Shown here piece by piece: positions 55,080-64,000 of a stretch of 64,000 nucleotides of DNA. The DNA is from Rhizophagus irregularis (lineage: Eukaryota > Glomeromycota > Glomeromycetes > Glomerales > Glomeraceae). Under the pieces are notes generated by a model. That model saw only the letters and a list, made by a program, of their open reading frames with translations. It made no database searches and was not told the DNA's origin. Both the position numbers and the translations under genes were made by a program. Location of the stretch: NCBI RefSeq assembly GCF_026210795.1, contig NC_089457.1, forward strand, positions 806,001-870,000. Direction: 5' to 3'. Every line of letters starts with the position of its first letter. The stretch's first letter is position 1.

Positions 55080-57800
55080 ATAAGATATAAGGGGTACCTA
55101 TTATAGAGGTACCACACTGTAGACGTTGTAAACGGCCGAATATCAAGCATGAGAAGATGATAAAACACCACCGCCAAATGTAATTATCAAGTATTAAGAA
55201 CGAACAAATTAATCGTGGATTGGTGTGGATGGATAAATAATTAGCCGAAAAGGATAAACATTTAAGAAGAGTAATGATCTGCATGATGTAATATTTATTG
55301 AATGATTGACAAAGAACCAATAGGATAAATAGAGTCGATCATTTGCGGCTTAGCGATCTTTAACAATGAGAACGATAAGAAAGAATAATTATAAGCCACA
55401 AAAGATAGATTATAAGCAAAACACATAAAGTGGATTAAAAGAATATATAAAATAATGTCGGAAAGATTGGAGAACACAAAATAATATAAAGGATAATATG
55501 AAAAGATGGCATAAAGATGGAATATAAAAGATAACATATTAAAAAGAATATATATAAAAGATAACACAGCCACAAAAGATGAATTATATCTTTACGACAT
55601 AATATTTGAAAGATTATTTAAAGAAAAGGTAGCACAGCCATAAAAGATGGGTTATAAATTATTTCTTTGCGATGTAATATTTGAATAATAGAAAAGATAA
55701 CATATAAAATAATATAAAAGATAGCATATTAAAAGATAGCGTATTTAAAATATAGATAGTATATTAGAAAGATAGTTCAAAGATAATATGTAAAGAACAT
55801 AAAAGATAGTATATAGATAGAATAGAAAATAGCATAAGAATTGTATATATAGAGAACGGAATTCAAAGTAATTCCATAGTTCTCATCCACAGAACTCAAT
55901 AAAAATATAAGTTTCATTTAATTATTTGTTAATGAAGTTTAATGTTAATTAAAGGTAATAGGTTCGCCCTAAACTTTAATTAATGTTCGCTTAATTAATT
56001 TTAATTAAACAAATGAAAATGTTAAGATGAATTAAATATATGTTTTTGAAAAGTAATAATTCGTAGCGAGAGCTATCGAAGTTTGAAATTAAAGGTAAAA
56101 GTGGATATAATTTGGGGAAAATTTAGAGAAGTTAATTTTATTTTATATCATTTGATGTTTTATATTACAACGCTATTTATGTTGTGAACCAAGAATGTTG
56201 TTGTATATTGACGTGTATTGTTCGGTGATTGTGTCGCTTGTTAATTATGTTGTTGATTAATCGCTTGTTCGTTTAATTGTTCGTTCGTTCGTTTGTTTGT
56301 TCTCATTCGTTCGTTCGACCATGAGAATGCCCGTTCGATGTGGCAACCTTGTAAATTGATGACAGGGGGAATCGGGGGATCTCATATGGTGCATGCTCCG
56401 AGAAAGGAAATGATCATCATCACATGATTATTATTATAATGAATATGAAAATTTAATTTCGTTAGTAAGTCACTGATAGGTATTATTAATCAATATTTTA
56501 TTTTAGAATTTATTTTTAGATTTCAGGTTTTGACGAGTTCAAAAGGAACCAATAAATCAATGAGGATTTAACGAGTTAAAAACTTGAAAAGGCGAAAGAT
56601 TGGAGTTTGGAGTTGTGCAAGTAATCACTTAATCGATAGAAAGCACAAGAATGTTTCTTTCGGGAATAAAGTACCTGAGAAATTTCATAAGGAGATGTGG
56701 AAGCGAAAGATAAATTTTGGAATAAAGATTAATAATGGGAGAACACCAATGTATTATCCGGGGTTCATCTGTGTGGTATGGGTTACCTCTGAGTTTGGAT
56801 TTTAGATAAATGCTCAAGATTGGAAAATTTTTATTCTTCGACATTAAAGATTATAACGTATGGGTTACGTCAAATCTGGATACCCAGCTCAATAACGCGC
56901 GAATTGCTTTGGGGACGGGGAATGAAAATTGTAAAGACACCTACTATCAAGAAACATTGAATGGATAAAATGGGACAAACCTGTAAACTATCATGCTTTT
57001 ACCCAATGGGAAAAAGATAGAGATAAGCCCAGTATAGGTCCACCAATTTAAGAAAGTTGGTTAGATGAGTTTTGAGGATAGCAGATGACTTTCAAAACTG
57101 GATTTTGGAAGGTTAGATTCACCCGTTGAGAAACAAGTCGGCCAACGAAGAAGGAAAAGACGGATACGTTGTATTGTTACAGGTCCTAGGCTACATTTCA
57201 GATGAGGGTTCCTGGTGTAGTGTCCTAGTTCACGCTTTCATTACAATGTTCCGTTAAAAGAAGAAAAAATAGAAGGATATTTACACATTAACGAGCCGTA
57301 TAATGAACATTACGTGCAGTATTTAATAATAGAGTAAAATCCGAAAAGAAGGACATTTATTTAAAAGAAGAACATTTATTTGAAAAAGAACATTTATTTG
57401 AAAAGAAAGACATTTATCTGAAAAGAACGACATTTTGTGTGTTATAGATTAATTTATATAATATAGAATATATAGTAAGAAGGATTTATGTGGACGATAA
57501 GAAAGATTGGAAATTCGCAAACCTTAAAACTCCAAAATTTTCGTAAAGTTTGTGATATGTGAAATTATGGATCTTGGTGACAAAAAGATGTGACAAAAAG
57601 ATGTGACAAAAAGAGGTGATAAGTGAAACTATGAATCACGGTGACGAAAAGATGTGACATGTGAAATTAGGGAAATCGGTGATAAAAGATAAATTTTATG
57701 GCGCAGTAAAAAACCTCCGCAGCCTGAGGAGATCGTGGACTTAGAAAAATTTTTGAAATTTCGAGGCGCGGCAAAAAATTAATAGTAAAATATGACGTAG
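55080..57800 (+). promoter_or_regulatory. 5' LTR/leader candidate
   Basis: There is no intact gene. 55370-55830 is a degenerate array of AAAAGATA/AGATAACA and GCCACAAAAGATGAATTAT words. TATATATAGAGAACGG at about 55845 looks like a TATA box. AATAAAAATA about 50 bp downstream could be a polyadenylation signal, which together would suit a U3-R arrangement. 57570-57680 repeats GGTGACAAAAAGATGTGAC. Scattered protein-like pieces (56584-56805; about 56990 YHAFTQWEKDRDKPSIGPP) suggest a decayed extra reading frame. No primer-binding site was identified with confidence. Confidence 0.35.
56262..56325. repeat. GTTC/GTTT simple repeat
   Basis: TTGTTCGTTCGTTCGTTTGT and a second CATTCGTTCGTTCG run. A tetranucleotide microsatellite in the retrotransposon leader. 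Confidence 0.85.
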
Positions 57801-58259: not shown

Positions 58260-58376
58260 AATAACGGAATGATAAGATATAGATTTGATAAGCATTTAAA
58301 TAATTCAGAGTAAGATAATACATAAAGGGAAATGTAGAGACATAATGGATAGAATAACGGAATCAATAAGATATAG
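58225..58376. repeat. About 90-bp imperfect direct duplication before gag
   Basis: AAAGGGAAATGTAGAG, AATGGATAGAATAACGGAAT and AAGATATAGA occur at about 58232-58282 and again at about 58322-58376. The second copy contains the gag start codon (58345). Confidence 0.8.
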
Positions 58377-61300
58377 AATACAACCAAAAATGAAAGAAAG
58401 GGGATTACGAACAATTATATTAGTAATTGTAAGAGACTGTATTGAAAGAAATCTGGGGAATGAAGTATTTGATAGATTAATTGGAAATCCTGAATTAATA
58501 GAACACAAATATATTTTGGAAGATTGGGATGTTGAAAGAAGGTTTGAGAAATTTTGGCAATGGTATAGAATCACATCAAAAGAAATTGGACCATTACGAG
58601 TAAAGACAGGAGCAATAGAGACGTTTAGGGAGTTACTATATGAAGAAGAAGGAATAGCTATGAATGAGGAGAAAGTAAAGGAACTAATGTCCAAAATAGA
58701 ATATGAGAACATACATATAGAAAATGTTCACGAATATCACAAGAATATGATGCAAAAGATAATAAGAATATTTATAGATACTAGGGGATTTACAAAAGAG
58801 CCAGAAGATTCAGAAAGTGAAGATAGTCCAGCAAGTTACGAATTGGAAAATGATTCCGAGGAAGAATTAGAGATAATAATAGGAGATAAATCATGGAAAT
58901 TTAGTGAATTAAGAAGAAGGTCAAATGTTATGGATGAAGATCAACTGAGGTACATTTGGAAAATAGGAATAAAGTTGATGATAGAAATGGATATATTGGT
59001 AACGAGAATATTTATGGATAAAATTCAAGAGATAGAGGAATTGGATGAAAGGGAAAAAGAATTGAGGATAAAAGAATGGTTAGAAAAAGAAACAATAAGA
59101 TGTGAAAAATGTGGTAATAGAAGGTTCGAAATGGACGAAGCGGATAGCGAATGCGGGGAATGTGTTAAAGAAGCGCAGAAGAATGAACAAGATGAGCTAA
59201 TAGAATTAAGAAACAACTTAGAAAAATTGGGATATGAAATAGATGTGTCAGAAATTCAAAGAATGAAGAGTTTTGGGGTAAATAATCGAATAATAGTAAC
59301 TAAAGAATTTGTGGAAGAATATATGGAAATGATAGATTTGGAAGATAAAGAATTAAGAAAAGAAATTCATAAGTGGTTAAACAAGAATACAACTTGGTGT
59401 GAAAGATGTGAAATAAGATGGATGAATGATATGTTTAGATTGGGATGGATGGATGATATGTCTAGAGTAAGAGGAATGGTATGCAAAGATTGTGAAGAAG
59501 AAAATATCGATGAAATTGATGATCGGGTAAAAAGATTACAGAAGATTTTTGAAGATATTGGAACAATAATAACTGAAGAAGAATTGTTGAGATTAACTAG
59601 TATGGGATATACAGATGGAGAAATTTTAGATAAAGAATTCATTGAAATCTTTCAAGAAAATAAAGATGAGTCGGAAAAAGAATTGAAGAAAAAATTAGAT
59701 AAGTTGTTGAAAGAACAAGCGGGAATAATAGATAGTGAAGAAAGTGGCGAAAGAAGCGATAATGAAGAATCAGAAGAAGATAATACAGATGATTCAGAAA
59801 AGATTGGAGAAATACTAAGTCCGGATGAAAGATGGGATGAAGATATTGAAAATTTTAACGAAGAAGAGTTTGAAGATGAAGTTGAAAATGGTATAAATAG
59901 AGGGGATAGCGATTTAAGTCAAAATTCAGATACGAATAGTTCATTAAATATTAAAAATTCTGACAACGAAAGTGAATTATCTGATTATAATTTACAAGAT
60001 TTATTTCAAGAGAATATATTGAATATGGCAACCGAGGATCAAGTAAAGAGATTGATAGAGAACGCTTTAGGCTATCCGGCTAATACTTTGAACGCAGCAG
60101 TAGGAGCAGGAGGAAGTTTGATAGATAGGATCGAAAATGCAGGAAATGAAGCAGGAGGAACAATTAGTATACCACTCTTTTATGGAAGAGAAGATGAAGA
60201 TGTTACTGATTGGGTTAGACAATTCGAGGTAGCATTTGCAGCAGTCGGAAAAGCAGCGGGAGCTAATGGCGTAAGACAAGCGGTATACGCAGCAGCACAT
60301 TTAAGAGGAGCAGCAGCACAATGGTATAATGAAATGAAAGAAGTAAATGCAGGTCACTTAGTGAATTGGGCAGATGCAGATAATGATAATGATTTAAAGC
60401 ATAGAATAAAAAGAAGATTTACCAGAGAGGATGTTAGAAGAAAGAAAATGCTAGAATTAAGAAAAACTCGACAAGAAACAAATGAAAGTGTTGAAGAATA
60501 TACAAGAAGATTTAGACAAATATTAAGAATAGCAACTAGAGGACATGCATTAGCAGATGAATATCAAGTAGATTTTTACATCGAAGGATTAGAACCAACA
60601 ATAGGATATCAAGTTAGAAGACAGAATCCAGCGAACTTAAATGGGGCGATAGAAATAGCAGTAAGAGAAGAAGGTGCAAAAGACGAATTTTTAAGAAAAG
60701 CAATAGGAATACCAATTAGTACGAAGATAGATATCGGAAAAGATGACAATAGACAAAATATGTTCGCAAAACCATTGAACGAAAATTATGAGGACGAATT
60801 AGCTGAAATGTTTAAAGAGAAGGCGAAAATTGGTAAATTAGAAAGAATGGTAGCAAATATGGAGAGAAGATTAAATGACGATAATAGGAATAGGTATCGA
60901 CCAAATATGGGAAGGAGATTAAATAATGGTAATAGGAATAGTTATCAACCAAATCAGAATAGGGTACCAACGTGTTTCGGATGTAATAGAGTGGGGCATT
61001 ACAAGAATAATTGTCCCGAAGGAAGGAATGCAAGAGTAAATATGATAGACGAATATGATGATCAAGAAGAATATTATTATGATGAATATGGATACGAGGA
61101 ACCACAATATAACGGAATATATTACACACAAGGCTATTACGATGATTATGAAGATGGAGAATTAAATTATCATAATGAATTATACGCAAAAGATGACGCA
61201 GTAAAAGGAAGAAGACAATCAAGAAGAACGAGTCCAATAGTGGGATATAAAAATAATAATGAAGAGGGAAATTTACAAGAAGAATTAAGGGAAGCAGGAA

Positions 61301-61662
61301 ATAGAATGGATGATAGAGAAATGCCAAGTGGTACAACGGCACCAAATTATATACCTGAACGCACAGAACAAAATGGGGGTAGACCAATAGGACCAAAAGG
61401 AATGAGATGGAGTAATAAAAGACAAGCTTATTACGACCCAACAGAAGGACTAAAAAAATGGAGAGAAGCAGGAGGACCAACAAAACCCAGAGAGTATGGA
61501 CCAAGATTAACTGACGGAATACCACCTTATGATATTGTGGAAGACGTGAAAAATTGTAGAGCGAATATAACATATGGACAATTAATAAACGGGAATGTTA
61601 AGTATCATAAACAATTGAGAGAAGGAACATATAGACCAAGAAGTATAAACGAAAAAAATTGA
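58345..61662 (+). CDS. gag: Gag polyprotein with zinc-ribbon-like N-terminal extension, 1,105 aa
   Basis: ATG start (MDRITESIRYRI); uninterrupted to TGA at 61660. Residues 1-560 are an acidic, helical extension holding two similar modules with Cys pairs at 253/256 with 270/273 (CEKC…CGEC) and 352/355 with about 380/383 (CERC…CKDC). Each follows a KEWLEKETIR/HKWLNKNTTW segment. Residues about 561-780 are the gag/capsid-like region: MATEDQVKRLIENALGYPAN, ADNDNDLKHRIKRRFTRED and ESVEEYTRRFRQIL. A CCHC zinc knuckle, CFGCNRVGHYKNNC, is at about 877-890, followed by an acidic Tyr-rich tail and SNKRQAYYDPTEGLKKW. Typical Ty3 Gag is 300-500 residues, so this is unusually long. It would bind and package the element RNA. 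Confidence 0.88.
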   Translation: MDRITESIRYRIQPKMKERGLRTIILVIVRDCIERNLGNEVFDRLIGNPELIEHKYILEDWDVERRFEKFWQWYRITSKEIGPLRVKTGAIETFRELLYEEEGIAMNEEKVKELMSKIEYENIHIENVHEYHKNMMQKIIRIFIDTRGFTKEPEDSESEDSPASYELENDSEEELEIIIGDKSWKFSELRRRSNVMDEDQLRYIWKIGIKLMIEMDILVTRIFMDKIQEIEELDEREKELRIKEWLEKETIRCEKCGNRRFEMDEADSECGECVKEAQKNEQDELIELRNNLEKLGYEIDVSEIQRMKSFGVNNRIIVTKEFVEEYMEMIDLEDKELRKEIHKWLNKNTTWCERCEIRWMNDMFRLGWMDDMSRVRGMVCKDCEEENIDEIDDRVKRLQKIFEDIGTIITEEELLRLTSMGYTDGEILDKEFIEIFQENKDESEKELKKKLDKLLKEQAGIIDSEESGERSDNEESEEDNTDDSEKIGEILSPDERWDEDIENFNEEEFEDEVENGINRGDSDLSQNSDTNSSLNIKNSDNESELSDYNLQDLFQENILNMATEDQVKRLIENALGYPANTLNAAVGAGGSLIDRIENAGNEAGGTISIPLFYGREDEDVTDWVRQFEVAFAAVGKAAGANGVRQAVYAAAHLRGAAAQWYNEMKEVNAGHLVNWADADNDNDLKHRIKRRFTREDVRRKKMLELRKTRQETNESVEEYTRRFRQILRIATRGHALADEYQVDFYIEGLEPTIGYQVRRQNPANLNGAIEIAVREEGAKDEFLRKAIGIPISTKIDIGKDDNRQNMFAKPLNENYEDELAEMFKEKAKIGKLERMVANMERRLNDDNRNRYRPNMGRRLNNGNRNSYQPNQNRVPTCFGCNRVGHYKNNCPEGRNARVNMIDEYDDQEEYYYDEYGYEEPQYNGIYYTQGYYDDYEDGELNYHNELYAKDDAVKGRRQSRRTSPIVGYKNNNEEGNLQEELREAGNRMDDREMPSGTTAPNYIPERTEQNGGRPIGPKGMRWSNKRQAYYDPTEGLKKWREAGGPTKPREYGPRLTDGIPPYDIVEDVKNCRANITYGQLINGNVKYHKQLREGTYRPRSINEKN

Positions 61663-61708
61663 CTACACTCAGTGGAACTATGAAAAATGATAGAAGAAAA
61701 CTACAGCA

Positions 61709-62170
61709 ATGAGAACAGAATTAGAAGTTGAAGATCAATTAGTGAGCGTAATAATAGATACCGGAGCAGCAGTAAGCGTGATAACAGATAAATTAAGAAG
61801 AAGATTGAATATACCTATATTTGGAAAAAGTAAATTTAGATGTACAATAGCAAATGGGCAAAAGATAGCAGCGTTAGGAAAGGCAAATATAACTTTGAGA
61901 TACAAAGATGAATTGGAAATACTAAGAGAAGTTGAAGTAATCGATTCAGAAGAAGAGGATCTAATTTTGGGAAATGATATATGGAAGTTATATAATGCAA
62001 AAATAAATTTTGAAGATCATACCTTAAGAATGGAAGAACAGGGAGAAATAATAACAATTCCAGTAGGATACGAAAGGGAGGTATATGAAAGTGAGGAGAG
62101 CGAAGACGATGAAGAATATGAAAGCAACGATGAAGGAGAGGTATTCAAAATGCACCAGAATTTTAAATAG
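61709..62170 (+). CDS. Retropepsin-like aspartic protease (pol, first part)
   Basis: The frame opens at 61694 after stops that separate it from gag; the first ATG is at 61709. VIIDTGAAVSVITDKL (about residues 14-29) carries the catalytic DTGA. LILGNDIWKLYNAKINF is the second conserved strand/flap-side motif. It would cleave Gag and Pol. The frame ends at TAG (62168-62170), and the same frame reopens at once with RT, so protease and RT were one polyprotein or are joined by stop-codon readthrough. Gag to pol is not a simple overlap: 31 bases and several stops lie between. Confidence 0.9.
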   Translation: MRTELEVEDQLVSVIIDTGAAVSVITDKLRRRLNIPIFGKSKFRCTIANGQKIAALGKANITLRYKDELEILREVEVIDSEEEDLILGNDIWKLYNAKINFEDHTLRMEEQGEIITIPVGYEREVYESEESEDDEEYESNDEGEVFKMHQNFK

Positions 62171-63302
62171 AGAGTCTTGGCTCTGAAGAGAGAGACGGAA
62201 AAGATGCTCGAACCAAGTGAAAAATTTATGCAAAAACTAAGTATAGGGAAAGTAGAAGAACCAATTTGGGAAAATATGGTAAAATTACTATTAGAATACC
62301 AAGATATTTTGGAATATGACGGGGAAATAGAAGGAAGAACAAAAGCAGCACAACATGAAATAAAGATAAAAGAGGGGGTAGAACCAATAAAGCAAAGAAG
62401 ATACAAAGAAACAGATGAAAAGGCAAAATTTATAAGCGAAGAAGTGGATAAATTGTTAAAACAAGGAAGGATAAGGAAATCAAAAAGTCCATGGAGTTCA
62501 CCGGTTACGTTAGCAGGAAAGAAAACGGGCAAATATAGATTCTGTATTGATTATAGAAAGTTAAACAAGATAACTATAATGGATAGTTTTCCTTTACCAA
62601 GAATGGATGAATTATTAGACAAATATAGAAAAGCAAAATGGTTTTCAAGTATAGATTTAGCAGCAGGATTTAATCAAGTAGAGATGAAAGAAGAAGACAA
62701 AGAAAAAACAGCATTTGTATGTTCGAAAGGATTGTTTGAATATAATGTAATGCCGTTCGGTTTAACGAATGCACCAGCAACATTTCAAAGATTAATGGAT
62801 GAAATATTAGAAGAATACATAAACGATTTTGTGGTAGTATATATTGACGATATTATGATATATTCAGGAAATTTGAAAGACCATATGGAACATGTGGAAA
62901 AAGTATTAAAGAAGTTACAGGAGAATAATTTGATAATAAAATTAAAGAAATGTAGATTTTTGGAAAGAAATATAGAATTTTTAGGACATATAGTAGGAAA
63001 TGATGGATTGAGGCCGGACGATAAAAAGATAGAAAAGATAAAAGAAATGAAGGCACCAACAACGGTGAAAGAAGTAAGATCATTTTTAGGACTTTGTTCA
63101 TATTACAGAAAATTTGTGAAGAATTTTTCAAAGATAGCAAGACCAATAAGCGACTTGAGAAAGAAAGGAGTACCTTTCATTTGGGGAAAAGAACAACAAG
63201 AAGCGTTTGAAAAATTAAAAGAAAAGTTAATACAATATCCAATATTGCGACATCCAGATTGGAAGAAAGAATTTCTATTAATAACAGATGCATCAGGGAA
63301 AA
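62171..63302 (+). CDS. Ty3/gypsy reverse transcriptase (pol, second part)
   Basis: Same frame as the protease, directly after its TAG. The frame shows no ATG at its start (first codons AGA GTC TTG), which fits readthrough rather than separate initiation; the first ATG is in KMLEPSEKF. RT motifs in order: VTLAGKKTGKYRFCIDYRKL, WFSSIDLAAGFNQV, AFVCSKGLFEYNVMPFGLTN, VVVYIDDIMIYSG (YxDD), FLGHIVGNDGL, RSFLGLCSYYRKFV. The start of RNase H, LITDASG, follows. The frame is lost at 63299-63302, where AAAA stands for an expected AAA; uncorrected it ends at 63334. All catalytic Asp residues are present. Confidence 0.92.
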
Positions 63303-64000
63303 GGATTAGGTGCAGTATTAAGTCAAAAAGATGAAAAAGGAAAAGAAGTAGTAATAGCATATGCAAGTAGAAGTTTATTACCAGCAGAAGAAAATTACCC
63401 GATAACAGAATTGGAATGTTTAGGAATAGTTTGGGGAATTCAACATTTTCATAAGTATTTAATCGATAGAAAATTTAAAGTAATAACAGATCACAGTGCA
63501 TTAAAAGGATTAATGAACGCAAAAATACCGAAAGGAAGAAGAGCAAGATGGGTAATGGAATTACAGCAATATAATTTTGAAGTAGTACATAGGTCGGGAA
63601 AAGAAAATACGAACGCCGACGCACTAAGTAGATTATTGAAGATAGTGGAGGAACAACCAGAAATAGTAATAATCGATGGAGTAGACGGATTGGGAAAAAC
63701 AAGTATAGTACAAAATTTAATTAAAGAATGGGAAGAACAAGGATTAAAAGTAAGATTCAATACTTATAAAAGAAGAAGAAAAGATAAAGATGAATTTCAC
63801 GAATCGAAGATGGATACAGAATGGAAATTCAGAAAAGAAGTAGTGGAACAAATAAATAGAAGAATGGTAGAATACGATGAAGATACAGATATAATAATTT
63901 TGGACAAATCACCATATTGTGAATATTATTACCAAAAGACGAAAAGTTTTGACAGAGGATTAATTACTCCACATGGAAATCATGAGATGGAAAAAGAAAT
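63303..64000 (+). CDS. RNase H fused to a thymidylate/nucleoside-kinase-like domain (pol, partial)
   Basis: After the one-base shift the frame continues GLGAVLSQKDEKGKEVVIAY, ASRSLLPAEENYPITELEC, VITDHSALKGLM and HRSGKENTNADALSRLL, the complete Ty3 RNase H with its end motif. Only about 10 residues later comes EIVIIDGVDGLGKTSIVQNL. This is a Walker A of the DGxDGxGKT form used by thymidylate and deoxynucleoside kinases. LKVRFNTYKRRR and DIIILDKSPYCEYYYQKT follow, like the TMP-kinase DRS/DRY…YQ segment. It then leaves the window. It would phosphorylate a (deoxy)nucleotide, perhaps raising dTTP for reverse transcription (inference). Integrase is expected further on. Confidence 0.8.

Follow-up and report, generated by a model that had tools for sequence, protein, structure and literature searches.

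Fungal Ty3/gypsy retrotransposons with an added enzyme of nucleotide metabolism have been described before: PosPlaTy3, Tmt1 and other elements contain a dUTPase domain (PMC2864245), and viral dUTPase is assumed to aid replication in non-dividing cells (PMC2864245). They resemble the element reported here in having a Pol with an extra thymidine-nucleotide enzyme that is variable in its place, but their dUTPase is reported at the ends of Pol or between PR and RT, whereas here the extra domain is a kinase, placed after RNase H and before integrase. LTR retrotransposons of bdelloids provide a second parallel: they have a dUTPase and have captured, as modules, enzymes that different retroelement types have in common; there, however, the captured ORF3 encodes a GDSL esterase or a DEDDy exonuclease (PMC5408684). 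Outside retroelements, the potential mobile units of phytoplasmas amplify thymidylate kinase genes (20 copies of tmk-a in one genome), but these units are bacterial, bounded by the tra5 transposase, carry the kinase as a free-standing gene and involve no reverse transcription (PMC3750655).

As for a retroelement-borne thymidylate kinase (TMPK), no description was found in the PMC open-access papers searched. The word 'thymidylate' is absent from the main text of two papers on R. irregularis transposons (PMC8647823, PMC11075540), and 'kinase' from three papers on extra domains of retroelements (PMC6431247, PMC5408684 in its main text, and PMC2864245). Ty3/gypsy elements with an added nucleotide-metabolism enzyme are known, and in the variant described here that enzyme is a TMPK-like kinase.

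Here, we analyzed a stretch of 64,000 nucleotides of Rhizophagus irregularis DNA (C29:806001-870000; hereafter the window) together with the genome it comes from (146.7 Mb in 32 contigs). We think it rather likely that a Ty3/gypsy lineage of arbuscular mycorrhizal fungi acquired, where RNase H meets integrase, a nucleoside-monophosphate kinase of the TMPK superfamily, and that this kinase is of the dTMP type and feeds reverse transcription.

Structure and age of the element

The last 8.9 kb of the window hold most of the element, and the features located in the window are all on the + strand. Self-comparison delimited a 5' LTR of 1258 bp (55127..56384, TGTA...CTCA) and its 3' counterpart, which lies beyond the window at C29:871650-872907; the two are 99.92% identical, with 1 mismatch in 1258 positions, and the flanks of the element have the target-site duplication ACGT in common. 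The element is thus 11,781 bp long and young. A putative primer-binding site of the TGG type, TGGTGCATGCTCCGAG, is located just inside the 5' LTR (56387..56402), and the polypurine tract GAAGAGGGGGA precedes the 3' LTR. The sequence TGGTGCATGCTC, directly after the 5' LTR, is also present in the six other elements that we read with their flanks, and all seven share a putative primer-binding site beginning with it. TG...CA LTRs, target-site duplication, primer-binding site and polypurine tract, all features of Ty3/gypsy LTR elements, are thus present together.

The internal region begins with a Gag ORF of 1105 residues (58345..61662; Retrotrans_gag 9.5e-13, Ty3_capsid 9.8e-10), in which the capsid match covers about 60265-60669. 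It is followed by an aspartic protease ORF of 153 residues (61709..62170; gag-asp_proteas 5.6e-9), by a reverse transcriptase (RT) ORF (62177..63334; RVT_1 9.6e-45 at 62519-62995) and by an RNase H-kinase ORF (63288..64000; RT_RNaseH 1.4e-32), which closes past the window at the equivalent of 64286. Gag and the Pol order protease-RT-RNase H-integrase match the layout of Ty3/gypsy elements (Metaviridae). Within the Gag ORF, ~640 residues precede the capsid match (58345-60264), none of them matching Pfam above cut-off.

The first-pass annotation, made from the window alone, had asked whether an integrase follows in frame past 64000. An integrase is encoded downstream, and in the reading frame of the kinase, but it forms an ORF of its own behind in-frame stop codons and is not part of the same ORF. 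Beyond position 64000 the element itself continues, through integrase to the 3' LTR, and the sequence there is not a captured fragment of a host gene. Gag, protease, RT and integrase are likewise separate ORFs split by stops (window 61662-62216; L005:2140-2199). In the window copy, the RT ORF and the RNase H-kinase ORF (from 63288 on) are out of register, which counts against the reading proposed here, while other copies have a single, unbroken RT-RNase H-kinase frame of 706 residues.

Motifs and family of the kinase domain

The kinase begins with EIVIIDGVDGLGKTS directly after NADALSRLL, the end motif of RNase H, and in the same frame, so that the proposal of a P-loop domain running on from RNase H is borne out by the ORF at 63288..64000. 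The window holds its first 117 residues (63648..64000; phrog_761 5.9e-11, and a profile-profile match with TMPKs); reading the frame past 64000 in the same contig gives a complete domain of ~210 residues. Its conservation was followed over 48 distinct places in the genome, aligned by tblastn and picked without use of any motif; they comprise the 8 best and 40 chosen of 150 kinase matches, mostly full-length and stop-free, and under-represent decayed copies. Three motifs stand out. In the P-loop GVDGLGKTS (63678..63704), G16, D18, G21 and K22 are identical in 48/48 places. The FRKEVVEQINRR motif (63828..63863) has F66, R67 and N75 identical in all 48, and its last residue, R77, in 47. Finally, DKSPYCEYYYQ (63903..63935) keeps D91, K92, S93, P94, E97, Y100 and Q101 in every place; at position 96, 41 places have C and 7 have S.

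TMPKs have two characteristic motifs, the P-loop GxDxxGK[ST] and DRxxxSxxAYQ, a form also visible in our alignment of 13 phage, plasmid and E. coli TMPKs (A3). The P-loop of the element kinase fits the first of these. When a profile made from 18 kinases of the elements and their relatives (A2) was compared with A3 by hhalign, the two aligned over 172 columns, residues 10-213, with a probability of 97.2% and an E-value of 3.3e-11, and DKSPYCEYYYQ was placed onto DRxxxSxxAYQ. The control comparison with 8 adenylate kinases was confined to the P-loop (22 columns, 40.7%), though on a shallower alignment (Neff 2.9 versus 4.5). PHROG phrog_761, 'thymidylate kinase', matched the full domain at 8.5e-14 over residues 10-212 of 217, and TIGR00041 matched 16 of 18 members. 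Among Pfam families, Thymidylate_kin (PF02223) was the commonest match, found in 28 of the 33 members of a further alignment (A1; best 7.4e-8). Its scores on single sequences lie around the gathering cut-off of 27 bits: 24.2 bits (3.1e-5) on the window ORF and 21 bits on the full domain, both below it, and 27.7 bits on a decayed kinase of the element type at C6:4454486.

Several observations count against the TMPK reading. The Arg of the TMPK motif DR is Lys in 48/48 places; of the motif as a whole, which here reads DKSPY[CS]EYxYQ, the D, Y and Q are kept, and a Ser stands at the S position in 7 of the 48. The window copy scores below the Pfam cut-off, as given above. In PDB sequence searches the matches fell mostly on the P-loop and FtsY ranked above TMPK; with a single sequence as query they returned repeat proteins first and no single significant stretch. 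Lone E. coli TMK, aligned with A2, matched over the P-loop only. Compared with phage and bacterial dTMP kinases (phrog_761; A3), the element kinase shares a near-whole-domain match, a P-loop devoid of Arg and the DxxxxSxxxYQ spacing, but those enzymes are free-standing, have DR rather than DK and are low in sequence identity to it. Further along the domain there is a basic R-E-x-x-K segment, with R152 and K156 present in 48/48, and the combination of an Arg-less P-loop with a basic later segment is presumably the bacterial (type II) layout and not that of the yeast and human TMPKs.

A chance P-loop was ruled out by the whole-domain alignment and by conservation in many copies, and we regard it as highly likely that the kinase belongs to the TMPK superfamily and is maintained by selection as part of the element. 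The first-pass annotation proposed that a TMPK-like domain follows RNase H within a Ty3/gypsy Pol, and the sequence shows just that. Nothing that this annotation named as a refutation was seen: more copies carry the fusion, profile methods assign the whole length of the domain to TMPKs, and the element runs on beyond 64000.

The choice of dTMP over another nucleotide as substrate is something we infer from these likenesses. The domain might instead be a genuine nucleoside monophosphate or deoxynucleoside kinase that acts on another substrate (a deoxynucleoside, dCMP or dUMP, or the 5' end of a nucleic acid) in salvage or end processing. Specificity is unreadable from sequence, the DR motif is DK, the dNK family (PF01712) matches 4 of the 33 A1 members (best 1.2e-4), and a polynucleotide-kinase PHROG weakly matches the related protein P0132 (2.6e-4). 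The TMPK profiles nevertheless match more members than dNK does and match them better, and the DxxxxSxxxYQ spacing is that of TMPKs; we consider another substrate unlikely, while giving it more weight than any of the alternatives discussed below.

Copies, kinase-free relatives and selection

The fusion is not peculiar to the window. At least 150 of 162 candidate matches to the 117-residue query are kinase matches, a figure that counts matches and not elements, a few of the 150 being pieces of one decayed locus. By hand count, 140 of the 150 listed have no internal stop; among those listed, the frame is exactly 706 residues long in 29 cases, 779 in 17, 777 in 4 and 600 in 20. The LTRs are paired in all seven elements read with their flanks (the window element and those on C3, C7, C4, C11, C12 and C8), at identities of 98.3-100%.

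The kinase occurs in four or more element families. In family A, RT, RNase H and kinase form the 706-residue frame and integrase is separate; families B (779 residues) and C (777 residues) have the same arrangement plus 72-75 residues ahead of the kinase, a spacer that in family C has no Pfam match. In family D (C8, L015:4908-8433), a 493-residue RT-RNase H ORF is followed by a 600-residue kinase-integrase ORF. RNase H precedes the kinase in 7/7 elements read and an integrase ORF comes after it in 6/7, the exception being the C4 copy, which has no integrase ORF of at least 150 residues. With the kinase fused to RNase H in families A, B and C and to integrase in family D, its position is constant and it is the ORF boundary that shifts from one side to the other.

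We examined the best 150 of 282 candidate matches to the family A RT. Among these, RTs at least 69% identical had a kinase match within 3 kb in 118 of 122 cases and within 6 kb in 121, as opposed to none of the 28 RTs at most 62% identical, even within 20 kb. A very diverged kinase would escape such a count, and the sequence downstream of two of the 28 was therefore read: NADAMSRLI ends RNase H, integrase follows ~200 bases on, and no kinase lies between them. Given this absence from the less similar Ty3 elements checked, the kinase was probably gained at the RNase H/integrase junction. Conversely, 28 of the 150 listed kinase matches have no RT within 3.5 kb among the best 150 of 282 RTs, which broken copies and the extent of that RT list can explain. 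The two kinase-free relatives read also have an ORF break between RNase H and integrase. Two more distant Ty3 RTs (57-58% identical), at C3:4001299 and C17:2595573, reside in open frames of 1453 and 1381 residues and not in split ORFs.

The kinase is under purifying selection, like integrase. Its mean pairwise dN/dS was 0.081 over 25 family-A places and 0.092 over 23 copies, values computed from pairs that are not independent and which, among retrotransposon copies, report on selection acting on those from which other copies descend. In the 12 copies with long RT-RNase H and integrase frames, dN/dS was 0.090 for the kinase, 0.040 for RT-RNase H and 0.097 for integrase, and a codon bootstrap over 23 family-A copies gave a kinase pN/pS of 0.104 (0.065-0.155). 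The kinase of family C (5 copies) had a dN/dS of 0.082 and that of a C-like group (3 copies) 0.132; the higher values in families B (0.26, 6 copies) and D (0.21, 4 copies), which come from few differences, count against the reading proposed here.

Conservation also bears on the idea of a P-loop module without catalytic activity that is retained for a structural role such as assembly of the RT particle or tethering of integrase. Its location at a domain junction would suit such a role, as would the changes seen at some positions: D107 is N in 8 of the 48 places, and one place has an altered P-loop residue (G19 to R, L058). A stop falls inside the domain in two places (L059, L060). 17 of the 28 tabulated positions are nonetheless invariant over the 48 places, the changes at the others being mostly conservative, and E63, R108 and E153 are unvarying in addition to the residues named above. 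There is no variation in these places in the lysine of Walker A or in the residues FR, DKSP, E, Y and Q, and the same residues are also kept in fusion proteins only 33-46% identical (see below), as catalysis would predict. We therefore consider an inert module improbable.

Exchange between families, relatives and possible function

Family B (L013, C11:3552001-3562000) is a patchwork. Its RT palm is 90-92% identical to that of family C in four 40-residue blocks, against 42-78% in the remaining pre-kinase blocks, and its integrase is 82% identical to C versus 60% to A. From the P-loop on, by contrast, it is 67-95% identical per block to A and 48-77% to C (L013 versus L011 and L017). Synonymous divergence (dS) between A and B is 0.72 in the kinase, compared to 1.3 in RT-RNase H and 2.5 in integrase, the larger values being near saturation. 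The simplest reading of a kinase of the A type combined with RT and integrase of the C type would be recombination near the P-loop. Kinases are, as judged from these comparisons, exchanged between element families, which would make the domain an enzyme cassette swapped between retrotransposon families.

Where database relatives have a species name, the nearest belong to R. irregularis and the others to R. clarus or Glomus cerebriforme; most of the remainder are metagenomic. In R. clarus, two proteins have a kinase followed by integrase (P0012, P0044) and one has RNase H, kinase and integrase (P0077); the G. cerebriforme protein P0110 consists of RNase H and kinase. Among the most diverged relatives are four metagenomic proteins (P0115, P0130, P0132, P0139) in which a kinase 33-46% identical to ours is fused to a NUDIX domain nearest to MutT/NUDT15; P0140 and P0143 are fragments of the same type. 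These fusions keep G16, D18, G21, K22, F66, R67, N75, D91-Y95, E97, Y100 and Q101. They are like the element kinases in kinase type and in the stretch before the kinase, which matches the spacer of families B and C, but differ in carrying the NUDIX domain. When the 45 residues ahead of the kinase were compared between 23 NUDIX-less proteins (2 represent families B and C; the others are database proteins, for the most part not shown to be Ty3) and 5 NUDIX-type proteins, both sets being cut to end at the same Pro, hhalign aligned 44 columns with a score of 29.7; 40 column-shuffled controls had a mean of 8.3 and a maximum of 16.5. The spacer of families B and C and the pre-kinase stretch of the NUDIX fusions thus probably share ancestry. 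In the R. irregularis genome, searches for NUDIX with P0130 and P0132 aligned only through their kinase parts and the short preceding stretch.

An origin in phages or bacteria was considered and set aside, as phage records and viral contigs yielded no convincing relatives. P0115 had no tblastn match in 50,697 phage records; in the same records, the family-D kinase had 7 weak matches (E 0.1-0.9), 4 of them to Enterococcus phages, covering half of the query with 27-28% identity, and 3 over the P-loop region. On viral contigs, none of 90 stretches found with A1 was confirmed, P0132 gave none, and 2 of 53 stretches found with A5 matched, over the P-loop only. Among the matches listed on genome contigs, one was bacterial (29% over 85 residues) and was judged from its ORF to be a different P-loop kinase.

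As to function, the odds are about even, or slightly better, that the kinase feeds dTTP to reverse transcription. According to this model, the protein would fold, bind ATP and convert dTMP, or else another dNMP like it, into the diphosphate by phosphorylation. It would be made in cis, as the tail of RT-RNase H in families A, B and C or the head of integrase in family D, and packaged along with the polymerase, the protease either cutting it free or leaving it attached. A cellular NDP kinase would then complete the step from dTDP to dTTP, and the outcome would be a larger dTTP pool for AT-rich cDNA where the host TMPK is limiting. Such a role in dTTP supply fits what is seen in the element. The kinase would then act further along the pathway of dUTPase, which leads from dUTP to dUMP, dTMP and dTDP, and the supply of thymidine nucleotides would limit reverse transcription enough for selection to act at a second point. 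A benefit in 'non-dividing spores', raised by the first-pass annotation, is speculation. More tentatively still, and with the chances somewhat against it, the element may own a private, Pol-packaged dTMP kinase whose ancestor was a module coupling a MutT-like NUDIX pool cleaner with a dTMP kinase; the NUDIX half would have been dropped when the module entered Ty3, and the kinase would now be a cassette shuffled between families. These ideas bear on DNA-precursor supply in AT-rich, repeat-laden fungal genomes. With so many conserved kinase domains, and with relatives that naturally lack one, the question of enzyme activity lends itself to direct test.

The host owns TMPK genes, which counts against the reading proposed here. 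One, on C13, has the motifs DRYAYSG and DKAGKST and is apparently split by introns, and a passenger captured from it, merely hitch-hiking, would be in keeping with the fact that retroelements do capture host genes. We rejected such a capture as very improbable, since family A has a dN/dS of about 0.08-0.09, the kinase occurs in four families and three named species, the C13 gene differs in the features just given (on which the comparison was made), and no gene of its type is among the 120 relatives listed. A second host TMPK-like match lies on C24.
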